Assembly: GCA_903813345.2 (NCBI GenBank)
Contig: CAIIXF020000009.1
Location: forward strand, 26,138,740 to 26,202,739
Origin: Owenia fusiformis
Lineage: Eukaryota > Annelida > Polychaeta > Sabellida > Oweniidae
Direction of reading: 5' to 3'
Length of the DNA stretch: 64,000 bases
The translations under genes were made by a program, and so were the position numbers. A model generated the notes under the pieces. It was not told the DNA's origin. It ran no database searches and saw only the letters and a list, made by a program, of their open reading frames with translations. This document shows positions 31,901 to 61,900 of the stretch, piece after piece (position 1 is the first letter of the stretch; the number at the start of each line of letters is the position of its first letter).

Positions 31901-34900
31901 TGAGATTGTTTTGTTTACTGAAATATGTATTAACTTGTGATAGCAAACTAGTTTTTTCATCTTTATATTCCATAATGTAGGTTTGAATTGACATGAGAAT
32001 CCAAGCAAGTGAAGCATACTATACTGTTGAGATTTTGAAATAATGCAATGCATGCACCCATTGAAAAGGAAAAAATGAAAGAGCATTTAAAATAAAAAGT
32101 TGATCAACTTTGGTCGTGATTTTGGAAATGAGAATTTTGCATCTATTTGTTTCGAAAATTCTAGTTTGGGAAATACTGGGTTAATGTAATTGTAGATCCA
32201 GAATGGTGTCAAGTAGTAATCCTTATTACATGGTGTTATTTTACCCTAAACTACACATTCTCAGTCGAACTATCTTGATACATGATTAGAGGTGCAAGTT
32301 TCGAAGAAAACTAGAGTCAAGTCTAATATGAAAAATGGAGCCAAGAGTCGACGAAAAAACTCATCTTTTGGTTTCTTTATTTCTGCTAAAATTATTCAAG
32401 AAAATTGTGTGAATTTACCTCAAAAAGGTCAAAATGGTCTTTTTTCAACTTGCATCAAATTGACCATTTTTTCAATTTCATCTACAAATTATCAGAAGTT
32501 CAAATCTGACTTTAGATTTGAGATTTGACCTTCAATGACCTTCTCAGGGTCAAAAAATGTCTTTTTTCAACTTGCTTCAAATTGACCAATTTATTTTCCA
32601 AAATCATCTACAAGTTCTCAGAAATTCAAATCTGACTAAGTTTGAACTCATAATATTGTTAGCAACTAGGTGGTGACATTTTGTCACGTTAATGCCTTGT
32701 TGTTTAGTGTAATATCATAATTTCATTTTCTTAATTATGTTTCAAACAAGATAACATTATAAACATTTAATAAATAAAAGAGGGCAGCTTGATATGGCTA
32801 TTAAATCCAACTTAGGTAGCAACACAATAGAATGAGTTGTTGTTTATTTTAAAGAATGTAATATACAGTTTTATCAAAAGGAAAGTACATCCTTTTCTAT
32901 TGTTTTTAAAGAATGGACACTTGGCAAGCTATTAAAAAAGTGTGGCAAAAATGACGATTGGCAGTTTTTTATCGTTTCCATCCCCTAAAACAATATATAT
33001 GCAGTACACTGAAGCTGAACTAATTATGCCGCTTTCACTCACTTACTCGTACATGTATCAACTCACAATACCTCCAGTTGAGTAGTGAATACTAAAGAAA
33101 TCAAATTTTCTAGATTGGATCATGGACCATTTGGCTTTCATAACAGCCAGTGTGGGTTTTAAGTAAGATAAACAATCTACCTTGGGTTTTATGAGAAAAT
33201 AATTGTTGTGGATCTGAATATCTGTCATATGTGAAAATATGCATGTACTACTCGTATTACACATTATTTTGAGTAATATTTTTTTATCAAACATCATAAG
33301 AGAGATGCAAAAAACTTAAGATTAAAAATTAATAATTTTTCAAGAATTATATTGAAAGATATTGTTTTAATACATTCAATATTTGAATCACTTATGAATA
33401 CAAATTGCAGTGATATCATTTTGAGCATACTACACATGTCAACTCTCTGCCATGAACATATTTTGGACAGGGCAGGGGTCCGCAAACAGCTTGAACAGGA
33501 TAAAACAATGCACCATCTTTGTTTTCATGGCCTCCATCAATTGTTTCTGGTTCTTCATCCATACATTCAAAGGCTTTGTTGTTTGCATGTGGGTGGTGTT
33601 CTGCTACGAGATAGCCTTTGTACTCTTTGTTCCAACCATTTGGGCATGTATGGAGCGCTGGTATCATTACCAAACTTCTAGGTATCTGGCACACCACACA
33701 GGGAACATCATGGTCATGTAAAGAATGAGGATTATGAGTGTCTGGAGCATTGGTTGCCTTGAATGGGATCTCATGAGAAGCATGAAACTGATATTCAGCT
33801 CCATATATATATGCACCAATACTATGAACACCATCAGTGTAACTTCCCCATTCAGGCTCATTAGGCAGACATAAATAGTTGCTACCACCTCCAGAATTCA
33901 AATAAGATGACCCTGCTGCAACACCTGAATTATTGAATATGATATATACATGTACATGTACTATTTGCAGGTCAGGTAATTAGGAGAATTTTAAAAACAA
34001 TTTTATCCTCAAAATTTCTCTGGAAAATGGTATTGAGCTTATTTTGAGCTTATCTAGTTCACATGTATACATTTAAAATATGAATTTTTAGCCTTTAAAA
34101 TGTGTATTTATACCTTTGTATAAGACACTTGTTCCATTTGTATCTGGACACACTGTTCTTCCCCAGCGTACATATGTGCTCCATACTGCTGACTCTACTG
34201 TAATTTGTTTGATTAATTTACATCTCATTCATTCTTCATAAAATACTTTTTGTCATTCATATTGTCAGTAATTTTCAATGTACGAATAATTTGAAAAATA
34301 ACATTGTTTCACTTGTTGAAGTTACATTATTTATTGTGTTGTTACATATATTACTGGAGAAGTTACCATACTTTTACCAGGTACATTGTACATGTATGTG
34401 AAAGGCAATATAATCAGACATACCAGCTGGAGTTCCACATGGCAATTCAAATTCTATATTACAATCCTTCTCAACAACAGGTATGGACTTCAGAGCTCTC
34501 TTGACAAAATAAATATACAAAAATTATCGATCATATTTAAGATGAACAACCTGAAAACTATTAATTAGATTTTCAAAAATATTTGCAGACTTTTAGAGAT
34601 AGTATCACTATATTTGATATATTATATATGATATTTTATATGTACATGCAAGAGTTAACACATTATATTTTTGGCAATTCATCTAGTGTATTCTCTTGAT
34701 TTCTGTTCTTGAGTACCATTTGTGTTTTTTTCAATAGTTAATGAAAACACAGAATGAAATTCTGTGCTAAGGGCTGATGTGAAAAAGTCAGCCAACCCTC
34801 GTGGGGATCGAACACATGTCCCCTCGCTTGCCATATTAACATTGCATAGATAACATTGCAGCCATGTCTTACATGCCCAGTTTCCTGGTCCAAATAGAGT

Positions 34901-37900
34901 TCCCTGTCTTTCCAGGTTGTTAATCATTCTATTTATGATGTCACATGGATTTTCCCATGAGCCATTCCCCTCAGGAGAAATAATATTAGTTAATGAAAAC
35001 ACAGAATTAAATTCTGCGCTAAGGGCTGATGTGAAAAAGTCAGTCAACCCTAGAGCCATTATTCTCTTGAATCCCAGGCTCTCAAAAATCAGTTTGAAAT
35101 TAGAGAATTTTTCATTTTTGCTAGTTTTTGACATTCTACCATACATACAACAGGTGATGCTCAATTTAGTGAATTTAGTTGGCAGGGATCATTTTTACAC
35201 ATTCTAAAACATTTTTGTCCATGAATTATTCAAATTAGAGCAATTTTAGTGAAAGATTTTGTGACAGATTATCTTAAAACTCTAGGTTTCTGGTTCATTT
35301 TAGGTGACGAGAACTCTTGTCACTCTTGTTAGTGAAGAGGTAAAACAGCAAGAATATTTCTTACCTTTATCTTGTCAATCCTTTCCTTGCATGATTGTGG
35401 TTTCCTTGTGGCAGCATCAACCAGATTGGTTTCCACTCCAGGTATATCTGAGGTTATGTCGAAAAATCTCTTTATGGCCATATATGGACAAATTCATTTC
35501 TCCCACCCCAATACTGTTGATGATAATAATGACAAATTTTACAAGGTGCGCAAGATTCTTACATACATCGTCAAAAAATTCCAGAAATATTTCCAGCCAG
35601 GTAGGGAGCTGGCAGCTGATGAAAGTATGATTTTATTCAATGGACGACTTGCGATAAAACAGTATATTAAATCAAAACCTACCCCTTGGGGCATAAAGGC
35701 CCACACCCTTACTTGTGCAAAGCACAAATACACTCTCAACATTGTGCCATATGCTGGAGCGAGCACCATTGAGCCAGTGATGTCAAAAGGTGGCAAAGGT
35801 GATCAGCCTCTCCCTACTAGTGTTGGTGTTGTAATTGCACTAACAGAACCATACGCAAATGAAGGACATGACATATTTACTGATTCTGCGTACACTAGCT
35901 TGCTATTAGCTTCTGAATGTAACGACAGAGGATTTAATCTTGTGGGAACAATAAACACAGCTAGAAAAGGCCTGCCAAAAGAAATCGTCAGCAAGACAGC
36001 ACCTCGTGTAAAAACTCTAAAGAAAGGTGAGAGCCTTTGGAGGACAAAGACAAAGAGGCGTCGTGGTCTTACAGTCAATGTCCTGACATGGAAAGACAAG
36101 CGTAATGTATCCATACTGACATCAAAGATTACTTCCAAGCGATGTAACATGGTGCCATCATTCACAAGGTAGGCATTATAAAAAATGCACATGAGCATGA
36201 TACTGAATAAATGTATACTACAGCACATGTACATATTTCATTTTCAGGTTTGATATAAGCATCTTAAGTTTGAGTTTGATTAAATTTGACTACAGTATGC
36301 CACCATTCATCTTAGTTAAAGAGAGAATCAGATCTAACGAGCAGTCTAATAAAAAATAATTTCAATTTTAGAATATTTCTGGTTAATGTCCTTCTGTTTT
36401 ATGTCTATTTTCTAAAAATCCCTGAACTGCACACTTATTTTCAGGAAAACTAAAGATTTTTACAATTATGTATTATGTTTGTATAATAATAGTTATCATT
36501 CTTATTGTTTAGGAGAATTTAAACATTTTCACCCATTTTTGCACTTTGAATCCATTATAACTTCGCCAATTTATAACATATCATGAATCTTTTGGGAGAT
36601 ATTGTATTTGAGATTGTAAGGAATAGATTGATTGGTCAATTTTACATTTTGCTTGTAATTTTGTAACCCCCATAGATCTGCCAAGGTAGATCTAATTTTG
36701 CCCTTTAAGTCTTTTTAGTATTTATTTTTCTACTTTTTACATATTTATCCTAGGAGAAGAGGAAGGTGGGTCGAGGGAGAAGTTAGTAAACCTGAGCTTG
36801 TGCAACTCTACACCAAGTTTATGAGAGGAGTAGATGTAGCGAACCAGCGTGTTGGTACTTACAGACGCCACTTCAAGACTAGGACATGGTATCGACAAGT
36901 GTTTTTCCATTTGATGAGGGTGTCTCTTGTAAATGCACACATCATTCATACTGAGGTAATAAATGCTAACAGTATTAAAGGTAGAGCTTCAGTGGCGGAT
37001 CCGGGATCCCAAAACATTTTGGACCCAGAAATTTTGTAAGGCCTCAAAATGGACCTTTATAGGCATGATTTGGCATTTTAGGCCTTTCTAGGCCAAATTT
37101 TCCTCGTTAGCTTCTGGATCCGCCACTGAGCTGAAATGTAGATAAAAAAGTAGCTGTATTGTTATAGAGAACTTACACAACTTACACCTCACTCAACCTA
37201 AAAGCCATACTTCTACCCTTCAGTGATCTGAATGTTGCCAGCTTTAATACATGACTAACGCACCACTTGACTAATTCTTTTGTTAATTGTGTATTGGTGA
37301 TCTATTAGTGATGTATTAGTGGTATATTAGATCTCTTTTTACATGGGCAATTCATTCCATTCAATATGCATTATTGTAACTGATTCAATTTTTTGTACTA
37401 AAAATTTTGTAGAGTAACAATGTTACCTCATTTAGAATGTACACCAAAGTTCACCTGAATGTACGCCTGATTCAGAATGTCTTCACATGATTTTTTTCTT
37501 TTATCAAAGCTTCACCCGGAAGACTCAATGCCACAGAGGAAATTTCATTTGGAAGTTGCAAGTGGCCTCATCAATGGCATGGTGAGTAACGCTCATAAAC
37601 GTGTTATACTCAGTCCGGATACAAGACATGACAGGGGGATGGCGCATGCCCCACAACTTCAAAGTACTGCATCATGGTGCATTGTTCACAAACAAAGATG
37701 TGACACAAAATACTCGTGCAGGGTGTGTAAAGTTAGGATATGTCCAGATCCTTGCTTTTTCAGGTATGTTTTTATGGTAAACTATGTTAAAATGTCAGAA
37801 ACAAGTCAAATTCTTTACTTCAGAGAATATTTTTAATTAAATTAAAAATATTCTCTGAAGTAAAGAATTTGACTTGTTTCTGATATATTAACCAGAGAGA

Positions 37901-40900: not shown

Positions 40901-43900
40901 ACCAAACACTAAATTTTGAAATGCCTGTCATTTTTTCACATTTGAGAGTTGAACCATGATACTTGGTAAATCAATGTAACTTTGGATGAGCTTTAAAATG
41001 ACATATGACACATACTATGACGACACTGGTATATGTCTGCCTAGGGGGGGCCCCATACTTTCGGGACACCCTGTAGTGACCATGGTATACCATGGTAGAT
41101 CATGATAATTAAATGGCTCCATTGCATATCATGGTTGAATATCTAGACCATGATATCACTGCATTTGATGGTATTTGACCATGAAATACTGTGAAACGGT
41201 GGTATTTTTTAGATACAAAATTACATGTTAATTGACCATGGTATACCATGGTATATCATGATCGTTAAATGGCACCATTGCATTTCATGGTCAGGAGCGC
41301 TTTTTTAACATGTAGTTTCCCATTGAAAAAATACTGACGTTTCGCAGTATTTCATGGTCACAAACCATCAAATGCAATGATATCATGGTCAAGAAACCAT
41401 CAAATGCAATGATATCATGGTCGAGAACTTGACCATACCATTGCATTTGATGGTTTCTGACCATGAAATACTGCGAAACGGCAGTATTTTTTCAATGGAA
41501 ATTTCCATGTTAAAAACGCGCTGCAGGGTTCTCACTAGGCTTTTAGACTCCGGAGATTCTCCGGAATCTAATGTCTTAAAACCCTCTTACTCCAGGGTCT
41601 AATAGCTTTTCCGTAGTCTAAAGTGTTTTTTGGAGTCTAATTTTATATTTTTGTCACATTATTAGCAGTAAAACTCTTGAGAAAATACATAAAACTGGAT
41701 ATTAACAAGAAATAGGAAGTCAGAAACCTTTTAGAAATAAATATTGGGATTAAAATAACAAGATAATCTTAAGGAGTATGTTGAAAAGTATACGAATAGG
41801 ATATCTCTGATCTCACATGGGGGAGAAGTAGTCGCAATACCGCAAAAAAAGTAGTCACAATACCGCTAGAAATCCGGGGTCTAAAAATTTCCTGGTGATA
41901 ACCCTGCGCTGTAAACCATGAAATACAATGGTGCCATTTAACGATCATGATCGGCCATGGTATTACCATGGTATTTCATTGCATTTCATGGCCATATACC
42001 ATGGTATACCATGGTCATACCATGGTATGGCCATGGTCCATTTCAACATGGATGTGTTTAAATAATGTTCTCTCTCTAATCTTAAAATTGTGAGTTGTTG
42101 AAAAGCTTCCTAAGAATTGGTAGATGATGGCATTTTTGACAGAGTTAGTGCTCTTGATATTTGCCAAATATGACTCTTTTCAGTTGGCGACATAAGAAAA
42201 AACACAAAATGGTTCTGTTTAATAAGTTTTTACATGGCAGCCTATATTCTTGCTTAAAGGCTGACCTTAATGTAGAACCAATATTTGGACATATTTTTAT
42301 TTTTAAAAATTCAACAACTGGCAAGATTTTGAATGCCTGTATATTGAAATGCCATCATTAAAAATGGCATTTCCAGTGCAGAATAAAAGCACAACAAAAA
42401 AATACTGGTAGGTAACAGAAAAGGGTATTGCTGTGTTCCTTTACAAATAATAGTCTGATAAAGAAATCAAAGATACCCAGTGTAGAGGTTTAAGTTCTTA
42501 AGTACAACCTCTGAATATTTAAGAAAATATAACAGTACAGAGGCCCTGCCCAAACTGCCTGTGGCTGTCACAGCCCAGATCATAAATCAATTATAACTAA
42601 CCATGCTGACATTTTCTCAACCAATCATTGAGAAGAAGGAAACAAGCTTCAATGTTCAAAATTGCCATTACTAGGTAAACAATGACTTCAGAGGAAATGA
42701 ACATAGTAGTTTGATTTGATTTGGAATAATTGGGTTTGTTTTCCTGAAGACTGGTGCTCTAACTGAAGAGTCATATTTTTCTTGCTGTGTTCTGTCCCCA
42801 CTTTTTAATCTTTTTGGTCTTTTCCTGTTGGCACTTGTGCAGACATATAGATATACAGATTCATGAATATTGTCTTTGTTGGGATTTGCTACTCCATGTT
42901 GCCCATTTCTAGTATAGACAGCATTCAAAAAAGCACTTAATTTCTTTTATAATTATGTTTTTCATGCTCTAGTATTTATTAAAAGATATATTTATAACAG
43001 AGTTAATCGATGGTGATGTTAAGTAAAGTTACAGGTTATTCTAATATTTGGTGAATGTGTATTTTCGATATGTCAGAAATATAGTCGTACTCATTCAATT
43101 TCCTTTGATACATGTTCTTGATGACCAGTTTATGTTTCTCTTTAGGGCTCATATAGCTTCAACATTTATAGGTTCTGTTCATTTATGGTTTTTGTCATTT
43201 TGGTAGGATTTCAGTTCAGTTTTTCAGCATTCATCACACCTTAATTTTTAATAAATCAGATAACCCGACACATCATGTAAACTAAAACATGGCAAGCAAC
43301 CATATAGTCAGCAAATTTCTTTTTTTTCACATCATAAATACTCGTACATTTCTCATATATCAATATGATTTTGCACAGTTTCCACATGTTCTTTCCTGGA
43401 TAGGTACATCATCCATCATTTGGTATCCAAACTATAGCCCGAGCAATGAGCCTTAGGGCATAAATTATGCTAAAATCTTAACCCTCTGTTCTAATGTACT
43501 GTCAAAGCCTTATTCCCATTCATAAAATGAAATAATTCATAATGTGATAATTTTTCTAGAATTCTATTCCAAGAAATATGTTTTATAATACATTTAATAT
43601 CTGAATGAATTCTGGATGCAAATGACAGTGAAATCACTTTGAACACACTATACATGTCAATTCCCTGCCATTAACATATTTGGGACAAGGCAAGGATCCA
43701 CAAACAGCTTGAACTGGGAGAAACAATGCACCATTTTTGTTTTCATGGCCCCCATCAATTGTTTCTGGTTCTTCATCCATACATTCAAAGGCTTTGTTGT
43801 TTGCATGTGCATGGTGTTCTGCTACTAGGTAACCTTTGTACTCTTTGTTCCAACCATTTGGACATGTATGAAGTGCTGGTATCATTACCAAGTTCCGAGG

Positions 43901-46900
43901 TATCTGGCACACCACACAAGGAACATCATGGTCAGTTAAGGAATGAGGATTATTAGTGTCCGGAGCATTGGTTGCCTTGAATGGGACCTCTTTAGAAGCA
44001 TGAAACTCATATTCAGCTCCATATATATAGGCACCAACACTATTTAGACCATCAGTGTAACTTCCCCATTCAGGCTCGTTAGGCAGACATTAAAAATTGC
44101 TACTACCTCCAGTGTTGGTATCATGGGACCCTGCCGCAACACCTGAATTATTGAATATGATAGTATATACTATTTGCAGGTCAGGTTATTAGGAGAATTT
44201 TATAGAAACAATGTTATCCTCAAGATTCCTCAAGAAAATGGTATTTAGCTTATTTTGAGCTTATCTAGTTCACATATATACATTTCAAATATGAATTTTT
44301 AGCCTTTAAAATGTGTATTTATACCTTTGTATAAGACACTTGTTCCATTTGTATCTGGACACACTGTTCTTCCCCAGCGTACATAAGTGCTCCATACTGC
44401 TGACTCTACTGTAATTTGTTCATCAATTTATTTCTCATTCATACTTTACAAAGGATTTTTTCATTCATATTCTCAGTAATTTTCATTATACAAGTAATTT
44501 GAAAAAGCACATTGTTTCATTGGTTGAAGTAACATTATTTATTGTGTTGTTACATATATTGCTGGAGAAGTTACCATACTTTTACCAGGTACATTGTACT
44601 TGTATTCAAAAGGCAATATAATGAGACATACCAGCTGGAGGCTCACATGGCAATTCAAATTCTATATTACAATCCTTCTCAACAACAGGTATGGACTTCA
44701 GAGCTCTCTTGACAAAATAAATATACAAAAATTATCAATCGTATTTAAGATGAACTACCTGAAAACTATTGATTAGATTTTCAAAAATATTTGCAGCTTT
44801 TTAGAGATAGTATCACTATATTTGATATATTATATATGATATTTTATATGAACATGCAAGAGTAACACATTATATTTTTGGCAATTCATTTAGTATATTC
44901 TCTTGATTTCTGTTGTTCAGTTCAATATTTGAAATATACCATACATGTATGTGTTTCTTCCAATAGTTAGTTAATGAAACCATAGAATGAAATTCTGCGC
45001 TAAGGGCTGATGTGAAAAAGTCAGCCAACCCTAGTAGGGATCGAACACATGTCCCTCGCTTGCCGGGCAAGTGCTCTTAGTGACCACTGGGCTATCGGAG
45101 CCGACTGGCTTTTCCACATTAACATTGCATATATAACATTGCAGCCATGTCTTAGATGCCCAGTTTCCTGGACCCAATAGAGTTACCTGTCTTTCAAGGT
45201 TGTCAATCATTCTATTCATGATGTCACATGGACTTTCCCATGAGCCATTCCCCCTCAGGAGAAATAATATTAGTTAATGAAAACACAGAATTAAATTCTG
45301 CGCTAAGGGCTGATGTGAAAAAGTCAGTCAACCCTAGAGCCATTAATCTCTTGAATCCCAGGCTCTCAAAACTCAGTTTGAAACTAGAGAATTTTTCATT
45401 TTTGCTAGGTTTTGACATTCTACTATATATACAACAGGTGATGCTCAATTTAGTGAATTTAGTTGGCAGAGATCGTTTCTTCACATTCTTAAACATTTTT
45501 TGTGCAAATAGGATGAATTATTCAAATTAGAATAATTTTAGTGAAAGATTTTGTGTCAGATTATCTTATAACTTTAGGTTTCTGGGTCATTTTTTAGATG
45601 TTGAGAAATCTTGTCACTCTTGTTAGTGAACAGGTTAAACAGCAAGAATATTTCTTACCTTTATTATGGCAATTCTTCTCTGGCATGATTGTTGTTTCCT
45701 TGTGGCAGCATCAACCAAAATCATAATTGAACCAAGAAGAAAAAATATATGTGTTGCCATTGTCCTGTTTTGCTCCCAAATGTTGATGTTTGTTGAGCCC
45801 GAGCTTCAATTAAAATGATGGTGCGATAGAATGTGATGAAATAGCAGTAATATATTAGCAGTAAATATATAAACTTGTTAGAAAATGAGCAAGTATTTAC
45901 TTTTAATGTTTTAAAACATACAATTTAAATCAAAACAATATTGATATTAGATAAGACGACGTATGGTTCTGATTGATTTATTAGGATATTCACTATTCAC
46001 AGGCCTCGCGCTTAACTTTTTTTTATCAGGTAGTCATTTCAATACACAGTGAATTTTCCAGGTAGCTATTTGAGAGAAGCAGGTAGTGATGATTTTGATG
46101 AGAGTGCTTTTATTCTTATGACTTACCAGTGCAATAATTCTTACCCAGATATTACTACGATTTGCATACATATACAGATACTGAAGTCAATTATGATGGT
46201 CTTCTTTCAAGCTATTGTAGAAGTTGTGATTCGGTTAGAACAAGAAACAACAAGGATCAGCTGATCGCCAAATCGATCAAAAATCCACATATTTTGATAT
46301 TTTGGGGATATACATATTTATCTGATGGATACTAAATATATATGGGGATACCAACACAAGATAATTTTCGTATACGCCAGTAAAATCGTATCCGATGCAT
46401 ATGACGTGTTATTCCATAGTTAGCATGATATTCATAGGATAACATGTGAAAATAAAAACGGTATTTTTGTAATCAGTGGTAAAATATGATATTTTTGACA
46501 AATTTTCACTTAACCATAACATACGGTTTTTTAGCCGTGACATACGACATCGTATGCGATGGTTTATGGATTTTTGCTACTTCAGACTCAAAACGAGGCT
46601 AAGTATCAACATTGCTGGATCGTTTGGAAATTGAATTTAATAACTTAATTTCCGACGATTCTGATGATGACTTTAACTATGGAATAAAAAGAACATCCTA
46701 TGATTTACTCGTGATATGATTTTAATCCACTCATGGATATTGATATCTGCACTCTCTCGCTACGCTCGCTCGTGCAGATATCATATCCATTCGTGGATAA
46801 AAATCATATCACTCATAAATCATAGGATATCCTCTATATATCCAATCGTATCCGACTGATACTATTTTAAGAAACATTTAAAAAATATATATTTGAAAAA

Positions 46901-49900
46901 TTTGAAATTTTGAAAAATTTGAAATTTTGAAAAAAAATTGAAAAAAAGTTCTGAAAAAATTTGAAAAAAATGAAAATTAATTCGGAAAAAAAATTGAAAA
47001 TAAAATTACAGGAATAAAAAAATGAAAAAAATTGGAAAAAATATTTGAAAAAAATTTGAAAAGTTCCAATGTTAGCTCAGTAAAAATGAGTTACATTTTT
47101 TCATACAATCATTTTTAAAAATAAGGTCACAGAAAATAAAATGAAAAAAATAGTATAGAATTACAAAACAACAACTTCAGGTCAAATTATTTGAAGTCCA
47201 TACATAAATACTGTAGATTAGGTTAATTTGGTGCTACTTAATTTGGCGATCTTGCCATTTTTGGCATATTGGCGGCTATTTAATTTGGCGGATATGCAAA
47301 AAGTTAAACTTACGCGCTGTTTGCGAATTACCATGTAAATGGACATGTTTGGCTATGTTCATTTTTTCTTTTGAGGACCACTGGCGATATTCACCACGTT
47401 TGTACATTTTTGTGAGATCATTAATTTGCACCTCGATCGATGCTGCTTCTATACCGCGCTTTTCCTTTCTATCGTTTCCTTTCTATCTATCTTTTATCGT
47501 AACTAATAAAGGTACGATATTGTCGTCAGCTTGACGGGCGGGCGGGCGGGCGGCGGCGGGTGGGCGGGCGGCGTCTCACTTTTCAGCTTGTCTACAGGTT
47601 TCCAGCCAAACCATTTGACAGATTCATCTGAAATTTTCAGGAATGTTTCTACGTATCAAAGTTAAGAACTGATTAGTTTTTAGGCATTCTGGGTAAATTT
47701 TAAGGTGGCCATTTTGGATTTTCCGTCCTAAAATCTTCACTTTCAAGACTTGTCTACAGGTTTCCAGCCAAACCATTTGACGGATTCATCTGAAATTTTC
47801 AGGAATGTTTCTACGTATCAAAGTTAAGAACTGATTAGTTTTTGGGCATTCTGGGTTAATTTTAAGGTGGCCATTTTGGATTTTCCGTCCTAAAATCTTC
47901 ACTTTCAAGACTTGTCTACAGGTTTCCAGCCAAAAGATTTGACGGATTCATCTGAAATTTTCAGGGATGTTTCTACGTATCAAAGTTAAGAACTGATTAG
48001 TAATAAAGGTATGATATTGTCGTCAGCTTGACGGGCGGGCGGGCGGATGGCGGCGGGCAGGTGGGCGGCGTCTCACTTTTCAGCTTGTCTACAGGTTTCC
48101 AGCCAAACCATTTGACAGATTCATCTGAAATTTTCAGGAATGTTTCTACGTATCAAAGTTAAGAACTGATTAGTTTTTGGGCATTCTGGGTAAATTTTAA
48201 GGTGGCCATTTTGGATTTTCCGTCCTAAAATCTTCACTTTCAAGACTTGTCTACAGGTTTCCAGCCAAACCATTTGACGGATTCATCTGAAATTTTCAGG
48301 AATGTTTCTACGTTTCAAAGTTAAGTTATTAGTTTTTGGGCATTCTGGGTAAATTTTAACGTGGCCATTTTGGATTTTCCATCCTAAAATCTTCACTTTC
48401 AAGACTTGTCTACAGGTTTCCAGCCAAACCATTTGACGGATTCATCTGAAATTTTTCAGGAATGTTTCTACGTATCAAAGTTAAGAACTGATTAGTTTTT
48501 GGGCATTCTGGGTAAATTTTAAGGTGGCCATTTTGGATTTTCCGTCCTAAAATCTTAACTTTCAAGACTTGTCTACAGGTTTCCAGCCAAACCATTTGAC
48601 GGATTCATCTGAAATTTTCAGGAATGTTTCTACGTATCAAAGTTAAGAACTGATTAGTTTTTGGGCATTCTGGGTTAATTTTAAGGTGGCCATTTTGGAT
48701 TTTCCGTCCTAAAATCTTCACTTTCAAGACTTGTCTACAGGTTTCCAGCCAAACCTTTTGACGGATTCATCTGAAATTTTCAGGGATACGTATCAAAGTT
48801 AAGAACTGATTAGTTTTTTGGCATTCTGGGTAAAATTTAAGGTGGCCATTTTGGATTTTCCGTCCTAAATTCTTCACTGTCACACTTCTGTGTTTTAGGT
48901 ACGATATTGTTCACGTCTGTGCCTTGTTCCCGGAGTATTAATGAGTGACTGACCAGTTCTACGCCAATTTATGAGAGACATCTTTTCATATTTTTGGAAC
49001 AAATTAAACTGGAAAAGACTTAAATACACTGGATGAAATACCCCAGATAATTCCCTGGGATTCATTCTAAATTTTGGCGAAGATTTATATTAGCGAATTT
49101 TTCAATTTAGCCAAATTCGCCAAATTAAAGCGGGCGCCAAATTAACCCAATCTACAGTAGCGACCATCGGATAAATATGATATCCTATGATTTTCTCGGC
49201 TATCATTTTTATCCACTCTTGGATATCGCCGATCTCCACTCATTCGCTGCGCTCACTCATGGAGATGAGCGATATCCACTCATGGATAAGAATGGTATCC
49301 CTCAAAAATCATAGGATATCCTCCATATATATTGTAATATTTTGAGGAGGGGCGGGGAGGTCATATCTGTTATTTAAATTTATATTTCAATTGAGAAAGA
49401 TATATAAAACATGTTGTACATGAAAATTAGAAGTTGGACAAAGTAGTTACTTGTATAATTATGTGATCAATATTTTTCCAATATACTCTAATATATATTG
49501 AAAGGTGGTGGTACACGTAATTCTGAATTTTTATTTGTACATGTATTTTTAGCACCGGAAAAATATTGGTACTCAAGAGGAACGTTAACATAAAATGTTC
49601 TTGATGTCCATTTAGGTTACTTTATTTAAAAAACAATTCAAGATGTTATTGTTTTCTAGAATTTCATTTCATAAAAAAATGTATAGCACATTCAATATTT
49701 GAATTGCAAATTGCAATAAAATCATTTTGAACAGACTACACATGTCAGCTCCCTGCCATGAACATATTTTGGACAAGGCAAGGATCCACAAACAGCTTGA
49801 ACTGGGAGAAACAATGCACCATTTTTGTTTTCATGGCCCCCATCAATTGTTTCTGGTTCTTCATCCATACATTCAAAGGCTTTGTTGTTTGCATGTGCAT

Positions 49901-52900
49901 GGTGTTCTGCTACTAGGTAACCTTTGTACTCTTTGTTCCAACCATTTGGACATGTATGAAGTGCTGGTATCATTACCAAGTTCCGAGGTATCTGGCACAC
50001 CACACAAGGAACATCATGGTCAGTTAAAGAATGAGGATTATTAGTGTCTGGAGCATTGGTTGCCTTGAATGGGACCTCATTAGAAGCATGAAACTCATAT
50101 TCAGCTCCATATATATAGGCACCAACACTATTAACACCATCAGTATAACTTCCCCATTCAGGCTCGTTAGGCAGACATTAAAAATTGCTACTACCTCCAG
50201 TGTTGGTATAGTGGGACCCTGCCGCCACACCTGAATTATCGAATATGACAGTTTATTATCTGCGGGTCAGGTGGTTGAAAGAATTTAAAAAAGAATGAGG
50301 TAGTGAGCCTATTTTTGAGCTCATAATAAGTCTCCATATATATATTTCAAATATGATTTTTAGATATAATGAATTTTTAGCCTTTAGAATACCTTTGTAT
50401 AAGACACTTGTTCCATTTGTATCTGGACACACTGTTCTTCCCCAGCGTACATATGTGCTCCATACTGCTGACTCGACTGTAATTGTTTGATTAATTTATT
50501 TCTAATCCATACTTCATATTTATAATGGACTAATTGTTTTATTGGCTCACACAGTGAGCCTATGGGATCGACCAGGCGTCCGTCCGTTGGTGTGTCCGTC
50601 CGTCTGTCCGTCCGTCCGTCTGTTGGTCCGTCCGTCCGTTGGTCTGTCCGTCCGTCAACATTGGCCGCACAAATTAAAAGTGCTATTCGGATTGAGTCAT
50701 ATCCACATTAATTTTATGCATATGCATTATGCATAATGCCTATTTGACCTATCATCGCCATTTCCCAAGTTCGCCTGGTTTCCGAGAAATTGCTGATTTT
50801 GTTATCAAAAAGTCATATTTTCTCTAAATACTAGACACTTTGTTGAAGTAGAACTTTCAAATAACTTGTAGTAGTTGCTGTATATGCAACTTATGTCCTC
50901 TGAAGATTTCAAAGCTCTTGGAATTACAGTTTTTGGTGTTTACTCTATAAAATTTGACAAAAGGTAGGATTTATTGTCATTTTCAGTAAACTTTCTCATA
51001 TATAAAGTCAATGGCAGGTTTTCTGATTGACAAGTTTCTCAAAGTTTGCCTTATACTTGATCATTTCTTGCAATGAATTACATCATTTCTAGATTTAAGC
51101 ATTCCCTACATATTGCTCAATATATGTCAGCATCAAATTTTTACCGTTTTGGAGATATTTGACGTAAAAAAAACAGTAAAAATAAGTTTTTTTTCGACTT
51201 CCTTAAATTTGACCAAATTTTTGGGGGAAAATCATCTACAGGAGTTCAAATCTGACATTAGTTTTTGGATTTGACCTTTGACCTTCGAAAGGTCAAAAAG
51301 TTGATTTTTGGATGTGAATTTTGGTCAGCTTAATCACAAGAGACCTAACTGAGCTCTGAATAAGTAAAATTTTCAAGGTCAAAGGTCATCAGACTAGGTC
51401 ACACAACTGTGCTATCTAAGTTTCGCAAAGTTCGAGACTACAAATCCAAATCAATATTTTTGTTTGAAAGTAAGGATATACATTCCTCTGAAGGTTCCAA
51501 ACTGTGTGAGCACAGGACCGTAGGTCCTTCATTATTTTTAACTTTCACTCTATAAATAAGTTGAAATAAATACTTTTTTGTTTTAATAGTTGAAGTAACA
51601 TTATTGATAGGCTTTGTTGTTACATATTGCTAGAGAAGAAGTAACCATACTTTTACCAGGTATGCAAAAGGCAATATAATCAGACATACCTGTACCAGCT
51701 GGAGTTCCACATGGCAATTCAATTTCTCTATTACAATCCTTCTCAACAACAGGTATGGACTTAAGAACGTTCTGAATATAATAAATATACAAAATTACTA
51801 ACCTGTATTTAAGGTGTCATTTTCCTTATTTATTGTTTGAATTTAGTTACCATTTTGAATTTATAAAAAATCTACAAAGGCCCAATAAGTTATTGGGGAT
51901 ACATTTGAAAGGGTGATAGTTGAAGAATACACATAAAACCTCATTAAACATTTCAAAGTTTTATTTGTTAGAATACATTGTGTCTTTTTTGCTTATTCAT
52001 TTAAGTTTATAATTCAAAAGAAGTCTTTTACTAGAGATGAAGAATTTACCTCTATCCTTGCCACTCTTTGCTTGCATGTAAGTTTCTTTGCAGCTTGAGA
52101 CACAATTATCATTGAACAAAGTACTCCCAGAGTTAGTATCGTTGGTGCCATTTTGTTTTTATTTGTATGTACCAACGATTGCTGCTAGTTAATATGAAAC
52201 TTATATCTTGTTCATTAGCATTAAAATTAGCATAGGGAAAACATTTACACAAGAATAATAAACAAGGAAAATTATACAGTGTCAGAAGTGGCTAAATATT
52301 CGATGTTTATTTTACATTTGATATATTGCAAATCTATTTTAACATCATAAATATTCTAAATTTAATGTCAAAACAAATGTAGAAAACTTCAAATAAGAAA
52401 AAAGTAAAGGACCATGTGCAGTATGGCAAGTGATTTTAGACAGTCATATCTTTCACTATGAATACTTTCTGGGCATAGATGTGGTTTTTATTAAAACAAT
52501 ATGTTTTCTTTCAAGTGAAGTACCTATGATGATAAATATATCAATCTAACAATTCGAAAAATTATGAATATGGACCCCATGTGAACATTTTTCTCAAAAT
52601 GTTGAACCGATTTACTCAAAAGAGGATCTTCTCAAAAGAAGATTTTTATTCCATCAAAAGAGTAAACAACAAGGGGTCTAAAACTTCTTCAAAGGTAGAA
52701 TGGTATTAAAAGTCTACTTTTGAAGATATCAAATTTCGATGACCAAATCATGCTGAAAACAATGGATAGCACAAGTTTTCCCTATGGGAAAATAACATGG
52801 GATATGTGGTTTTTAACTTTAACGCATTTCAATACCCATCCCCTTTTCAAAATTGTTGAGATAGTATAGAAGAAACTTTTGATATGTTTGAATTGAGAAA

Positions 52901-55900
52901 AGCAAGATCCTCTATTTAGAAAATAAGCCTAACATTTCTAAAAAAGTGCCAAGGTTGGGTCGTAATCCATAATTTTTGAGAGAGTTGGATTGATATTTTA
53001 CTATCATGAGGACTTCTCTTGAAAGAAAACATATTGTTTTAATAAAAACCACTGTATTTATGGCCAGAAAGTATTCATGGTGAAAGATATGACCATCTAA
53101 AATCACTTGCCATACTGCACATGCACCTTTCAAACAAATAAAGAAAGTAATATATGTCAACCAAATATTTGATACTCTAAGGACGATTAGTAACGTTGAA
53201 ACCAAGTCAACAATATCAAATAAAAAGAACGTCATTGAATAAAGAGGGAAAAACAGGCATGAACAGTTAGTTTACAACATTGACCTCATGTACTTTATAT
53301 TAGTATACTTTATGAAAAATGTTAATTACATGGTTTATACGTTTTAGGATGAAAATGAGGCTGGTAAACCTCCTCCTCCTGAACTCCAGTATGCACCATA
53401 CCACAAACTACAGAAACTCAGCAAATCTGAGGTAAGTCACTTATTGCCCCTCTCCCTAAACTCCCAACATGTACCATATCAAAAACTACAAAAACTCAAC
53501 AAATCTGAGGTAAGTTTCTTAATGCCCCTCTCCCTAAACTCCAATATATACCATATCACAAACTAAAGAAACTCAACAAATCTGAGGTAAGTTACTTAAT
53601 GCCCCTCTCCCTAAACTCCAATATGTACCATATCACAAACTACAAAAGCTCAACAAATCTGAGGTAAGTTACTTAATGCCCATCTCCCTAAACTCCAATA
53701 TGTACCATATCACAAACTACAAAAGCTCAACAAATCTGAGGTAAGTTACTTAATGCCCCTCTCCCTAAACTCCAATACGTACCATATCACAAACAACAGA
53801 AACTCAACAAATCTGAGGTAAGTTACTTAATGCCCCTCTCCCTAAACTCCAATATGTACCATATCACAAACTACAGAAACTCAACAAATCTGAGATAAGT
53901 TACTTAATGCCCCTCTCCCTAAACTCCAATATACCATATCACAAACAACAGAAACTCAACAAATCTGAGGTAAGTTACTTAATGCCCCTCTCCCTAAACT
54001 CCAATATATACCATATCACAAACTACAGAAACTCAACAAATCTGAGGTAAGTTACTTAATGCCCATCTCCCTAAACTCCAATATGTACCATATCACAAAC
54101 TACAAAAACTCAACAAATCTGAGGTAAGTAACTTAATGCCCCTCTCCCTAAACTCCAATATATACCATATCACAAACTACAGAAACTCAACAAATCTGAG
54201 GTAAGTAACTTAATGCCCCTCTCCCTAAACTCCAATATGTACCATATCACAAACTACAAAAACTCAACAAACCTGAGGTAAGTTTCTTAATGCCCCTCTC
54301 CCTAAACTCCAATATGTACCATATCACAAACTACAGAAACTCAACAAATCTGAGGTAAAATACTTAATGCCCCTCTCCCTAAACTCAAATATGTACCATA
54401 TCACAAACTACAGAAACTCAACAAATCTGAGGTAAGTTACTTAATGCCCCTCTCCCTAAACTCCAATATGTACCATATCACAAACTACAAAAACTCAACA
54501 AATCTGAGGTAAAATACTTAATGCCCCTCTCCCTAAACTCCAATATGTACCATATGTGACAAACTAAAGAAACTCAGCGAATCAGAGATAAGACATTTAT
54601 TGCCCATTCCATATTGAAATGTCCAAAATAAGGAGTGAATTCATAAAAAAATATTTTGTTCAGTAATAATTGCTACTTCATGGGGTTGCTGTTATTTTAG
54701 TTGCAAAATTACCCCCTTAATATGGCTGTTAGACATTGTATTGGAAATTGGAAACTATTTTTATTTTTCTATTTAAAGATATACATTTCTCATCAGGTTG
54801 TGGTGTCTTTGATCTACTAGGATGTCATTATCTAATTCAGTAGTTCATTGTGATATTTAGATGATAAATTTTCTTGATTACACACATTAGAGTCCATATG
54901 ACTAAAGTATGTTCATATTAATTGCTTTTGTAAGTAAAGGCAATTGTTCAATCAATTTTCCCTGTCGCTTTGCTATTAGTTATCTAGGGATGAAAGCCAT
55001 TGAATGGATTCACTTTATTTATTATGTCGTATAATAAACATTGATTGTATGCTTTGTTTTCTTTTTATTATAGTTTATGATAGTGCATCATAGAAATTAT
55101 GAATTTATGTCAAAAACAACAAAATGTATGTATTTTCATTACTTGCAAATTGGCACGTTATTGCGCAGTTTTAAAAATATGCATTTCATTTTGAAATTAC
55201 CTTAAATTTATAAGATGATAACCTATGATTTATGGAATGTATGAAATGTGCATAGACTTTAGAATCTTGTATATTCCTCTAGAATTACTAAATTATTGAG
55301 ACCTGACTTATGTAATAATATATACAGGTTATTTATTGGGAGGGATTGAATATGGGTTTTATTCCGTGGAACAATAGATATTGACCGAAGGGTAATATAA
55401 TATGACAAATGGGTAAATATCTCTACTAAGGTTTTGATTAACTATATAAGTAACTTCATAAGTATGATTAAGTTAATTAAATACCTTATTAAGAAATCAT
55501 CTTATCATTATTAATTTGTCACCACCACAACTATTTTGTTTTGGTGGTTGGTGTTTGGCATCCAGTGTTTGTAACATGGCATCTGTAAGATGATGTCTGT
55601 AACATGGTATCTGTTACAAATGGCAGGTCGTGACATTTTGCATGTTGATGCCCTGTGTTTCCTGCATCAGTGTGATGTGGTCTTCATTTATGAAGGTCCA
55701 TTTGCATAAGAAAAGCACAATTCTTTAATTATGATAATGTTTTCTGTTTCAGTTTGAAGACCTGTATATTGAGGTGTTGTATACCATCAAACACAAAGTG
55801 GGGACAACCATTGGGGGCCACTCCCCATTTATGCAAGATCTCTATCTATATGCCAGGGAGGCTTTTGGTGTTACCCCTGAAGATCATGCCCACTTACTGG

Positions 55901-58900
55901 CAAAGGCAAGCAAAGAAATGGTAAGATCTTTTGATTTTTTATAAGTAGTTTGTCTGATATCAACCCCCTGTATTCCCCACATTCATTTTGTTTTCCAACA
56001 TAATGTCAATGTAAATAGTTAAAAACCTATTAAGGGATACCTAGCTTAGAGAGGACATCTTCCATTCCTATCAATAGAAAGGTTTCAAAAAGGTTCTTAA
56101 TTAAAGGCCATTCAAACCATCCTATAAGCTATAACTATATGATTCTGCTTCTCTTTCACACATTCTGTACAAATGCAACTAAATTGTACCAGTTGTCTCA
56201 GAGCAATAAAATAACACAATATAATCCAGCATCTAATTTCAAGGATTACTTATCATCGTGGACACATTTGACTGGCTTATAACATTAAAAAGCAGAAATA
56301 AATTACCCAGCATCTTCTAAGTTTATTAATCTATTTAAAAGGGTTCAGTGACTGCCATGTTGTAGTCAAAATATGAAATCATCAATTTGAGTAATGTTAC
56401 TCATAAATTAGAAACCCTTATGTTAGTTTCTTGAGGGAAATGTTCCCTTTGGGCCTCATAACATGTGAAATAGTACTCAGGTTATGAGAAATCGGGTGAC
56501 TGATCGTTCAGCTTTTTAAGGTCAGTGAAGTTTATGTGTTTCCCTCCATTAAGTAAAATCATCACGTATATTATATATCATGCTTTGTAAATTCCAGTCA
56601 TTCATTCTCGTAGATTAAGCTAGAGGTATAGTACATGAACTGAGGAGAACTCCAAAAGGTAGATAGAGCTTGAGGTATAGTTCATGAACTGAGAGGAACT
56701 CCAAAAGGTAGATAGAGCTTGAGGTATAGTTCATGAACTGAGGGGAACTCCAAGGGTTACATAGAGCTTGAGGTATAGTTCATGAACTGAGGGGAACTCC
56801 AAGGGTTACATAGAGCTTGAGGTATAGTTCATGAACTGAGGGGAACTCCAAAAGGTAGATAGAGCTTGAGGTATAGTTCATGAACTGAGGGGAACTCCAA
56901 GGGTTACATAGAGCTTGAGGTATAGTTCATGAACTGAGGGGAACTCCAAGGGTTACATAGAGCTTGAGGTATAGTTCATGAACTGAGGGGAACTCTAAAG
57001 GGTAGATAGAGCTTGAGGTATAGTTCATGAACTGAGGAAACTCCAAAGAGTAGATAGAGCTTGAAGTATAGTTCATGAACTGAGGGGAACTCCAAAGAGT
57101 AGATAGAGGTATGGAAATCACAAAGGATAGGTTCTCATTTACTTATTTCTTACTTTTCCTTCCTTTTAATAGCAAATTTCAATTCATTGAAACGTTTTCT
57201 ACAATAATCACTTTGATACAACAATTATGTCTGTATCATTGAATATGTGCCTTCGGTCTGTCGTAATATAGCCCTCACTTATTTAGTCAAACTATACTTC
57301 ATTCCCAGTCACTGTATTTGTATTATTGCTATTAATATTTATAGGTAAACATAGACAAATATATTATCCTTTTTAATGTGGCATATAGTGAATACTATTA
57401 GATGAAAAGTACAGTACAGGATTTTCTTTATAAAATCATTATATTGATACAAATTGCCCTCATTCATCAAATACAGAATGTAGGGGATATGCTCTAAACT
57501 CTATCGCGAAAATCTAAGTTTTTGATTTCTTACCAAAGTTATGTTTGAAATTTTCATAGTTTATTCATAAAATGTATCTATTTGACATACATATATATAT
57601 CAACCCTATGGGTGAATGCAATACCATTATTTAAGATTGAAAACTCTTTGAAATCCAAGACTTTTTGACCTTAATTTCCCGATTGTGTTGTCCTTGTTGA
57701 CATTGATGGATGAGAAATGTTTGATTTTGAACAGAAACGGGCGGTGATTAGGTCATCATTCGTTTCCATGTTATCAATAATTCACACTAGGATAATTGTG
57801 GGTCATTGAGTTATTCCATGAACATCAATGACATGAATTCATGGCAGAAACTTTAGCTCAGGGTATCTCCCTCAGGGGTAGCTATTTGGTCTGAAAGTGC
57901 TGGGAGCAATATTTAGATTACAAAACTTCTCTACATCTGTATATCCTGTTTTTTCCCTAAGGAGCAGTCTCTTGGTCTGGCAGCAAATAGGAGAAATATT
58001 TAGCAAGTTACAGTTGTATTTATATTATATTATTGTATTGACCTATGTACCACTTTAAATGTTCACAGTTTATCATGTTTATTGTAAATTTAATTATGGG
58101 CAGTCATACACCCCCTGGGGTGTCATAGCCTGTATAATGTTGTAATTTTTGTAATGAAAACTGAAATAAATTATTTTGAAATTGAATTGAATTGAATTGA
58201 ATCTTCTGGATCTGTATATCCTATTTTCTCCCTAAGGAGCAGTCTCTAAGCCTACCAGTAATGGGGAGCTATATTGAGATAAATAAGTCTACAAGAAGGA
58301 GGAACAACATTTAGTTCAATCACAATACTTTTCTGTATCTGTATATCCCCTTAATATATATCCATCAGGAGTCTCTTAGCCTACCAGTAAAAGGGAGCAA
58401 AATTTAGATAGATAGAGCTTGTTTATGATTTATATGTATATTCCATTAGGTAGATTACAAAGATTGCATATGGTTTTCACATTTGTTTAAATTATTTCAA
58501 TGGAGACAGGATGGCTACATGTTTATGAGTGTTTTGCAGACATTGATATTTGCATTAGATCACACCATTACCCTCTTCAAGAGGCTTTGCAAGATCGATT
58601 TACTCTTAGCATTTTTTTTATTTTATAGATAAACTTCTGAACTCAGCGAGCCAATCATACCCTTGAGTAGCTAAATTGTGGTTCTTTACATGTAATATAC
58701 ATCGTCATATGAGAATAATAATGTCCCTAGTGCCATTTTTGAAAAAATTGAGATTTTCACAGATTTTCACTATTTAAATCATCCTCTTTTTTACTGAGAT
58801 ATTCCCTTACCTTTATCTCCTCTCAATAGCATGCTTTTCAGTGTCAAATTGCCCTAACTCTATAAAAATTTCAAAAATACAATTTAACTTTGTTCTATGT

Positions 58901-61900
58901 ATCACTTTAACCAATCAAATTGTTTGAATTAAGCCATGTGACCAAGAATTATTATATAACAATTTTAAACTGAGATTTGAGTCTATTTTTGAAAAAATTG
59001 AATAGAGAAAATTTGTGTCCACCGAAGAACACTGAATAAGGTCACAATGACAAAATTTAATTTAGGATAACTATTGAGTACAGACATCATAATAAAGAGA
59101 AGATTATGCTTAAGCTAATAATTGTGTCTAGCTACCAGCCATGAGCTGGTAACATATACCCTGGGGAGATTTCAATATCATGTACTTTTGCCCTTAGTAT
59201 ATCAATTTTATTCATTTTGACATGGCCTCTGAATGATTGATTGAATGTCCAAAAAACTAAGCGATTTCATGATGGTAATGATTTTTTTCTCGATTGCTTC
59301 AGAAACTAATCTAGGAAGTTTTGATTTGTGTCCCCATGTTATTAATGTTGACTGATTAGTCTTTGGTGATGCGGATTAAATTGAATAAGCCTGAAGGAGC
59401 CTGAACCTGACCCCTGAGGGAGAAACCACTCTTTTTTCCTTTCCCCAGCCTGAATTCTCATTTTGGTAGAGATGTTTATATTTTTCTTTTGGATATCATA
59501 TGGTGAGATTAATATATATTTATATTGAATATAATTCACCATACACCATGCACCTTTTCTCCATTTGCATTTTATGTTTTATTTGACATAATAGGAATTG
59601 ATTTAAATATACAGGTCAGATTGTATGAATGTGAATATACAATAGTGACCTAATTAGAACTCTTCTTTATTTAATATTTATAAGTTATAACTCAATTGGT
59701 ACCAATGAGACTAGAAGTAAGACAATAATTCCAGGTAGACCACAAGTTGGAAATAGTCCATTGTTTTTATTGATATACAGTGTATTTCCGCTATTTGACA
59801 AATAGGGCATCGTGAGATTCTTCCATTGTTATCACTGCAATAACCCGAACCTGGGAGCAATAAAAATGTCAGATTTATTCACCTCGATCCCGCAACAAGA
59901 TGAATTACTCTCATGGGTCACCAATTAATTCATCATTTTTTACATACATTGGTATCGGGTTGAATTATCTTGAAAAATGATCTTCATGGTATTTTGATTA
60001 TGAAAAATGTGTAATAAATTCATTTAGAGAAAGATAGATCGGTGCTGTCAAGGAAATACATCAACTCTGATTTATGCAATATAGCCTGTGGCTTGCACCT
60101 TTTTGAATAACATATGACAACACTATACTATAGATCTATTCATCACTAGCTTATCGTAATGTAAGAAACTGATTTGTTTCATCAGTTACTTACAGAAACA
60201 TTTTTGCATTTTCAAAATTTGAGATTTATGATTAGATAATGAAACATTTTTGCATTTTCAAAATTTAAGATTTATGATTACATAATGAAATATTTTTGCA
60301 TTTTCAAAATTTGAGATTTATGATTTTTTGCATTTTCAAAATTTAAGATTTATGATTACATAATGAAACATTTTTGCATTTTCAAAATTTGAGATTTATG
60401 ATAACGTAATAAAGATACATTTGTGATTCTACAATTTCGGATCATATACATGAATACACTATTATCTTAGTGAATAGGTTAGTATGTTTTGACATCACCA
60501 AACAAACAAACAAACAAACAAACAAACAAATCAACAGATTTGAAAATGATGAATACAACAACAACAGGGGTATTTTAAGCTCTACAGAATGATCCTTTTA
60601 CGTGCATATACTATGCATATATGTACTGTACTGTATTTATTTCATCGAATTGGAAATTAAGGAGTATGTTCAACCACGAAGCACAAATGCTTTTAAAAAG
60701 GCAAGGGTTATAAATGTCAGGAAATTGCATATCTTTTATTAAGATGGAAGAATTATGTTTGCATCTTGAGCAATGCTACGACTGGTATTGGGAAACACTT
60801 AAGTTTTATTACACAAAAGTAGAAATAATCGACAATCTCTTTTGGGTATAAAATCCTACGTCTGGGATTCATTTTTATTTCACATTTGATGGTGGCAGCT
60901 TTCAGAATTACCATAAATTACATCTTACCATTTCTAATTGTCTAGTGGTGAAAAGCTCAGAAAAGTGAATTCCAAAGATATCGTGAAATAATTGTCCATC
61001 AAGAGACACATCTGGACACTGAACAGCAAGATGAGTTTACCTTAGAAATAGTAAAATATCTGTATTATGTTCATAACCTTTGCAAGTTGAAGCTTTATTT
61101 TCTGTACCGGAAAATGCTAGGGCATCTGTGTCATTACTGCGAGAATTAATAATCACATTATCACTGGTCTCTGTAGGCTTCTTCACATTCAGTATGTCTC
61201 TTGTTATGACTTCGATCATTTGTCATTATTTTGTCTTCAAACTGTCTAGATATAATGACTAATACTAGTCTACTGCTTCATAAAGTGTTCCATCTGAAGG
61301 CATTAAGGATCAATTCATTTGAATAAATAAACTTGTTTTAGGACAGATTGTAAAAGTGGGTGTTTTGCGGCATATTTTACTTTAGGTTACGGGAAAATAA
61401 AAAAATAATGGTATTTAATTTTCTTTAATTTCAAACTCTTCCCTTCAACAAAATAAAACCTCTATTATATGCTAATATTCATGTAATCAGTGCCTCTTTA
61501 CCGCCTTCCTCATCCATTTACATATGTACATTTATATTCCATCTTTTAATTCAAAGTCCTGGCCATAAATATGACTCATATGATTGGTTGATGTGTTTCC
61601 AGCCTCCCACCCTGATTCTTATTGTAACCGTAATAGAAGCCCGCAATCTAGAAGCCAAAGATGCCGATGGTGAGTAATAGGTGGCGCTATTGTGTCTCTT
61701 TAATCAAAAGTCGAAATTAACTATATATAATAAATTATCCATAGAATTATAGTTTTATTAATTACTGAGTTAAAAATGTAGTCACTGTATTGCATCTAGA
61801 CAATTCAGATAATGTATGTTATATTTTATATGTTTTTTGATTGCTCTGCAATAATTTTTTAAAAAAAGCACTGAAACACCCAATTACTAAGGGTGTCGAA

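Follow-up and report, generated by a model that had tools for sequence, protein, structure and literature searches.

A minisatellite across an exon-intron boundary in Owenia fusiformis and the probable choice of the first of many near-equal splice donors

Introduction

In the annelid Owenia fusiformis, an apparent coding exon is followed by an intron that opens with a ladder of copies of the exon's own splice donor. The question raised by this locus is how the first of these donors would be picked. We analysed it within a stretch of 64,000 nucleotides (hereafter the window; C9:26138740-26202739 in an assembly of 498 Mb and 525 contigs).

Several rules of donor choice are recounted in the available text of PMC9225289. 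Reed and Maniatis found that the donor nearest across the intron wins. Carranza et al. report that, between long flanking introns, splicing favours the site closest across the exon. In an exon-definition setting, minigenes carrying a pair of identical CAG/guaagu donors were spliced exclusively at the upstream one, and in human events of near-equal donor strength the upstream donor was chosen in 60%. Minisatellites of exon-intron boundaries are known from amphioxus as mirage minisatellites (Adh3, BflGb6, BflGb9, TnC and PGBD5) and are described, in the accessible parts of PMC3087553 and PMC3902484, as not disturbing splicing. The original prediction had left the choice of the first donor as an open question; given these minigenes and the undisturbed splicing of amphioxus, it is less open than claimed, as far as these sources go. 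Our reading, to which we assign a probability of about 80%, is that the array is a mirage and that the first donor is used through exon-wise recognition, the decoys downstream being bypassed despite equal pairing with U1.

Results

The host exon and its gene

The exon was delimited from its sequence, and its reading frame continues into exon 4. The features used below all lie on the plus strand, with positions counted in the window:

53348-53431, plus strand: apparent coding exon 3, 84 nt, phase 0-0, with TTTTAG directly 5' and GAG/GTAAGT at its 3' end
53372-53448, plus strand: unit 1 of the array, the exon's final 60 nt and the intron's initial 17 nt, from local alignment
53432-53437, plus strand: presumed true donor, GTAAGT
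53449-54604, plus strand: units 2-16, 15 copies phased as unit 1
53510-53515, plus strand: first decoy donor, at +78 nt, in frame and open (26 aa)
53564-53566, plus strand: TAA stop that interrupts all extensions to donors 3-16, whatever the frame
54526-54604, plus strand: unit 16, the divergent edge, with ATAAGA at the donor position
55753-55920, plus strand: exon 4, 168 nt, preceded by an intron of 2321 nt
61429-62442, plus strand: two open stretches, parts of which jointly match a C2 domain (Pfam C2, E 4.8e-10)

A protein search of the host genome gave matches confined to this gene and its array. The second open stretch within 61429-62442 matches C2 when scanned alone (E 1.6e-4), and synaptotagmins top the PDB sequence matches of the C2 stretch, among which is unc-13 homolog D (E 6.1e-5). 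A genome search with the MUN domain matched on C10, C5 and, weakly, C7, and did not match this gene. We take the gene to resemble BAIAP3/UNC13D, a provisional name drawn from the C2 match and from an apparent resemblance.

The window holds other features of its own: a transposase frame (35336-36169, plus strand; DDE_Tnp_1_7 family, E 2.7e-45), a 411-aa open frame (539-1771, minus strand) with a 111-bp in-frame repeat at 1097-1530, and three minus-strand open frames (33419-33979, 43637-44089 and 49725-50177) that are similar to one another and presumably resemble short-chain collagen C4. The frame at 49725-50177, the one of the three that was scanned, had no Pfam match. The likeness of the three frames, along with tandem repeats in common near 34 kb and 44 kb, suggests a local duplication.

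The array reaches into the exon

A 77-bp array of copies of a coding exon's end and its splice donor had been predicted. Tandem Repeats Finder run on the 64-kb window recovers it at 53378-54592, with 15.8 copies and 93% matches, overlapping the end of the apparent coding exon. We cut the array into 16 units, the exon copy and 15 downstream, spanning about 53372-54604. Local alignment of the exon against the consensus of the inner units gives a repeat unit of exon nucleotides 25-84 (60 nt) followed by 17 intron nucleotides. The end of the exon was hence amplified together with its donor, as predicted. The array does not start exactly at the donor, as had been thought, since the repeat reaches into the exon from 53372, and each unit corresponds to 60 exon nucleotides (53372-53431) instead of some 45. 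As the unit includes these 60 nucleotides, the pyrimidine-rich stretch of the intronic units looks like former exon (proline codons). The acceptor of exon 4 sits 1.1 kb past the end of the array. The following intron carries a second array (49 bp x 10; 56610-57108), which lies at no recognised exon edge.

The inner units 3-15 are alike, with a mean pairwise identity of 95%, and the edge units diverge from them: the exon copy has 90% identity, unit 2 has 92%, and unit 16 has 75% (mean identity against units 3-15, taken from 54537-54613, where the final bases fall outside the repeat). The exon copy and unit 16 have CTCAGC and TTATTG in common, and the inner units lack both. Since unit 16 is the most divergent and shares these states with the exon copy, it looks like an old edge copy, the inner units having probably been re-amplified.

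The copy number is known from one assembly and could be wrong. All 16 units differ from one another, which argues against simple assembly stutter; the flanks are unique, a DNA search of the host assembly matched the array at a single locus, and similar arrays occur at other exons of the same genome (see below). We regard an assembly artefact as very unlikely.

Donors, decoys and reading frames

The predicted count of intact donors was confirmed by direct reading: GTAAGT is kept in 11 of the 15 downstream units. The donor positions are 53510, 53587, 53664, 53741, 53818, 53895, 53970 and 54047 in units 2-9, and 54124, 54201, 54278, 54355, 54432, 54509 and 54588 in units 10-16. Four are degraded, in unit 7 (ATAAGT, 53895), units 13 and 15 (GTAAAA, 54355 and 54509) and unit 16 (ATAAGA, 54588). 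The 11 intact decoys pair with the 5' end of U1 at -10.7 or -12.3 kcal/mol, against -10.7 kcal/mol for the true donor. All 11 are thus equal to it or better.

The first decoy lies at +78 nt, not 77, owing to an extra C in unit 2 that is absent from all other units, and its use would add 26 in-frame residues without a stop. Every extension to donors 3-16 meets the stop at 53564, so that, by reading frame, exon 3 can be joined stop-free to exon 4 only via donor 1 or donor 2. It had been expected that extensions by multiples of 77 nt would mostly break the frame. This fails for the nearest decoy, which is open, and holds for donors 3-16, but through the stop at 53564.

A ladder of this kind might act as a regulator, with U1 sites guarding the intron from early polyadenylation or leaking into stop-bearing isoforms that set the mRNA level. 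The pairing of the 11 intact decoys would allow it, as would the stop common to all extensions to donors 3-16. Against it, 4 of the 15 decoys are degraded, the donor columns are no less variable than the remaining columns of the units, and the apparent acceptor-side arrays described below would need a separate cause. Minority states make up 5/126 in the donor 9-mer versus 28/994 elsewhere in the units, and a count this low or lower is found in 47 of 72 nine-column windows; by this comparison, the decoys of this array show no trace of selection for their retention. We consider a regulatory role improbable.

It had also been suggested that the units might be included as microexons, with ACTACAG in each unit ahead of an 18-nt stretch. 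The units would then be 18-nt cassettes (KLNKSE) between AG and GTAAGT, of a length that preserves the frame. The exact word occurs in 5 of the 15 downstream units (7, 9, 11, 13 and 14), not in each of them. Variants are ACAACAG (units 6 and 8) and ACTAAAG (units 3 and 16), and ACTACAG or ACAACAG precedes the stretch in 7/15. However, the acceptor-like AG is lost in 6/15, the AG has no adjoining pyrimidine tract and the implied introns would measure 57-61 nt, all of which makes the suggestion weak and the cassettes barely credible.

RNA accessibility was considered as a reason for the choice of donor 1 and set aside. The mean unpaired probability of donor 1 (0.30) exceeds that of 10 of the 11 intact decoys (0.13-0.26; 0.37 at donor 14) and is lower than that of three of the four degraded donors. 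If the 9-mer is taken as a whole, most decoys are as closed as donor 1 (~0.0001). The slight excess at donor 1 was given no weight.

Similar arrays at other exons

We searched the genome for three AGGTAAGT words separated by gaps of 51-81, which matched 433 + 158 times (200 + 168 with the pattern read backwards). The matches listed correspond to 10 loci, on C1, on C2 and within the initial 3.3 Mb of C3. In 10/10 the donor of the first copy is also that of an apparent coding exon, least certainly so in L011. Ten loci per ~101 Mb would amount to roughly 50 genome-wide for this one word and gap range, and other donor words and periods should raise the estimate. A second pattern, CAGGTAAGT, gave 60 + 68 matches (60 + 3 read backwards); those listed correspond to 13 loci, one in common with the AGGTAAGT set. 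Eight of the 13 start at an exon donor (L008, L014, L017, L018, L020, L022, L023 and the C11 array, the edge of which was taken from L067), four have no exon donor at the first copy (L015, L016, L019 and L024) and one, L021, starts some 60-90 nt inside an intron. Combined, an apparent exon's donor marks the start of 17 of the 22 distinct further donor-word arrays, and 5/22 have no exon at the first copy. The proportion of 17/22 is no measure of enrichment, because the donor word preselects donors.

Ten of these 17 exons match Pfam at E<1e-3: ligand-gated channel, mL52, Hsp70, COR-B, C-type lectin, Caprin-1, kringle, PF15874, protein kinase and PP2A B56, of which COR-B (L012), kringle (L018) and the kinase (L022) fall below the curated cut-off. 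The remaining seven had no Pfam match at this threshold. The C11 array (C11:10468162-10481854; L025 and L067) is a 76-bp donor array of ~13.7 kb, the continuity between its ends being partly seen. It begins at an exon reading IFLEDVTSIDVTQTSFLETQVGGAAKKRRLDSGWEALRETIETDARESNSQVIA, which has no Pfam match and which we presume to resemble ATM.

We compared decoys with true donors in 17 arrays, i.e., the window and 16 further loci (all but the C11 array), with exon frames picked by hand from open frames. Counting decoys that keep GT with at most 3 mismatches, within 1300 nt or the fetched stretch, 129 of 163 equal or exceed the true donor in their pairing with U1. Arrays range from 0/3 (L012) through 8/18 (L005) to 13/13 (L018) decoys equal or better, and the longest run of equal donors counted reaches 17 (L004). 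In 7/17 arrays the length of the first extension is divisible by three, and in 2/17 this extension is at once in frame and open, namely in the window and in L020. The latter, a 42-bp donor array from C7:31300060 onward (GKSYINEKCDCKAA), is a second candidate for productive decoy use.

These counts bear on an alternative to a bypassed ladder, namely that donor 2 is a working alternative donor and that a long isoform carries 26 extra residues. The 78-nt extension has no stop and keeps the peptide repeat in register: with it the PY-x-KLQKL-x-KSE peptide would appear a second time, within a linker far ahead of the C2 domain. The insertion that puts donor 2 in frame is confined to unit 2, and an extension both in frame and open was found just in the window array and L020 among the 17. 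An in-frame donor 2 is nevertheless expected by chance in one array out of three, against the 7/17 observed, and in exon-defined minigenes with identical donors it is the upstream one that is used, in the available text of PMC9225289. If decoys were used productively, more in-frame open extensions than 2/17 would be expected, although the sample is small. Regular use of donor 2 thus seems to us unlikely, and we retain the reading of a mirage whose first donor is used.

Acceptor-side arrays and control words

An acceptor-word pattern gave 562 + 595 matches (226 + 281 read backwards). Among the first 20 loci listed, eight seem, on reading of the translations, to have an exon that starts with the last copy (L030, L032, L036, L037, L039, L041, L043 and L044, of which L041 is doubtful). 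When these eight and two more were scanned, L044 alone matched Pfam, as a weak PP2C below the curated cut-off (E 0.0053). Arrays thus seem to occur on the acceptor side too, going by these translations.

As a control, we used the donor word read backwards, which yielded 10 arrays. One of them resembles a donor-side mirage, the exon concerned being that of a sodium:neurotransmitter symporter (SNF, E 7.5e-13). A second falls within a serpin-like frame (Serpin, E 2.2e-8). Three other arrays gave weak matches at most, or none counted, in a scan of 10 of the 51 edge-crossing frames, from 8 arrays, with 4 of the 20 array edges outside the fetched stretch. Among the control arrays, one had its repeats shortened, one was without edge-crossing frames and one had 2 left unscanned. 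In the serpin-like array itself (L058-L059; C2:29631800-29632810), a 24-bp unit repeats EWLNPFNP in frame.

Given the apparent acceptor-side arrays and, among the control-word arrays, the mirage-like one and the one in the serpin-like frame, we set aside a cause specific to donors. Tandem arrays over genes are thus common in this genome, exon boundaries being one of their places.

Multi-copy FMRFamide precursors are known from annelids and molluscs. When paired FMRFamide codons were sought in this genome, 19 matches turned up, every one of them within a single precursor at C6:23756324-23757144 (L066) that has ~20 similar FMRFGKKDGEDEKR-like repeat units; the reversed pattern gave none. Such a precursor agrees with a spiralian host.

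Discussion

Comparison with known systems

The window array shares structural features with mirages. As in amphioxus, the repeat unit spans an exon-intron boundary. In mirages the authentic boundary belongs to an end copy and the remaining copies are intronic; in the window array, the reading frame would allow a stop-free junction with exon 4 from donor 1 or donor 2. Homogenised inner units with divergent edges, seen here, are also reported for amphioxus BflGb6 (PMC3087553, PMC3902484, accessible parts). The same parts of these papers describe two BflGb6 haplotypes, one with 3 and one with 6 units, each unit measuring 150-160 bp, and units of 10-72 bp in Adh3, against the 16 units of 77 bp described here and the ~13.7 kb of the C11 locus. 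Abundance is a further point of comparison, with 17 further donor-side loci among the 22 donor-word arrays examined in O. fusiformis. The array seems to be of a known but rare and little-studied kind, of which the lineage and the abundance appear new.

Outside amphioxus, a literature search that reached few subscription journals turned up no minisatellites reported as mirages. The human IFI6 minisatellite is reported to have 12-nt units, with every extension in frame and several donors used. It would in substance be a mirage case outside amphioxus, and like the window array it provides an exon end with many donors. The frame-keeping extensions of IFI6 have no counterpart here, where donor 2 is in frame and donors 3-16 lead to the stop at 53564. 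The title of Turri et al. 1995, as cited in PMC2572611 and PMC2915984, names an IFI6 (6-16, G1P3) minisatellite and multiple splice donors.

Intron gain by tandem duplication (the Rogers model) also copies splice signals; cases listed in the available text of PMC4974935 are potato RdRp, where the duplicate crosses an intron-exon boundary, vertebrate ATP2A1 and fission yeasts, which repeat a 24-bp AGGT segment. These duplications make a new intron, whereas here the intron seems to have grown and no new one is evident. DDX3Y MSY2 was rejected as a precedent, its repeats supplying a transcription start and not donors (PMC3039753, in its available part). The portions available of the papers on intron repeats of earthworm metallothionein (PMC12783039) and on a C. 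elegans minisatellite (PMC4039745) do not mention a boundary-spanning unit.

A proposed explanation

We propose an origin by tandem duplication of a 77-bp piece across the exon-intron boundary, with later amplification that probably proceeded via unequal exchange. With the copies on the intron side, all except the first would turn into intron and the exon would stay whole. The exon would be recognised as a unit from its acceptor, with the nearest donor across the exon winning, and we infer that the ladder would be neutral. If donor 2 were occasionally used, the protein would gain 26 in-frame residues; splicing from later donors would lead to a stop and probably to mRNA decay. The same proximity rule would likewise render acceptor-side arrays harmless.

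This exon-centric rule is the likely reason why the first donor would win. It should apply here because the exon has 84 nt and the intron 2321 nt, provided that the upstream intron is long too; exon definition is thus assumed for exon 3 from its downstream intron, the length of the upstream one being presumed. Several points speak against this account. An intron-centric rule predicts use of the last donor, and human events of near-equal strength favour the upstream donor in just 60%. The fact that the nearest decoy is put in frame by an insertion found in unit 2 alone also fits a used alternative donor. Among the further arrays, the donor word preselects donors, 5/22 have no exon at the first copy, and decoys equal the true donor in U1 pairing in just 0/3 (L012) and 8/18 (L005).

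Wider reading

We advance tentatively, as a possibility, that boundary-spanning minisatellites occur at many exons of this spiralian genome, on both sides, and are tolerated via strict exon-centric proximity, which would keep a dozen or more equal donors silent. They would then form a standing pool for in-frame exon extensions such as that of 78 nt. What merits closer attention is that the first decoy is in frame and that the class is abundant in this genome, with splicing from the first donor as the expected outcome.

Competition between identical donors has been tested in two-site minigenes, in the available text of PMC9225289, and this genome offers a natural series, at genes with known domains, for which the intron-centric and exon-centric rules predict opposite outcomes. 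As far as the literature searched shows, the finding takes mirages beyond cephalochordates, and it bears on how introns lengthen and how exons gain segments.
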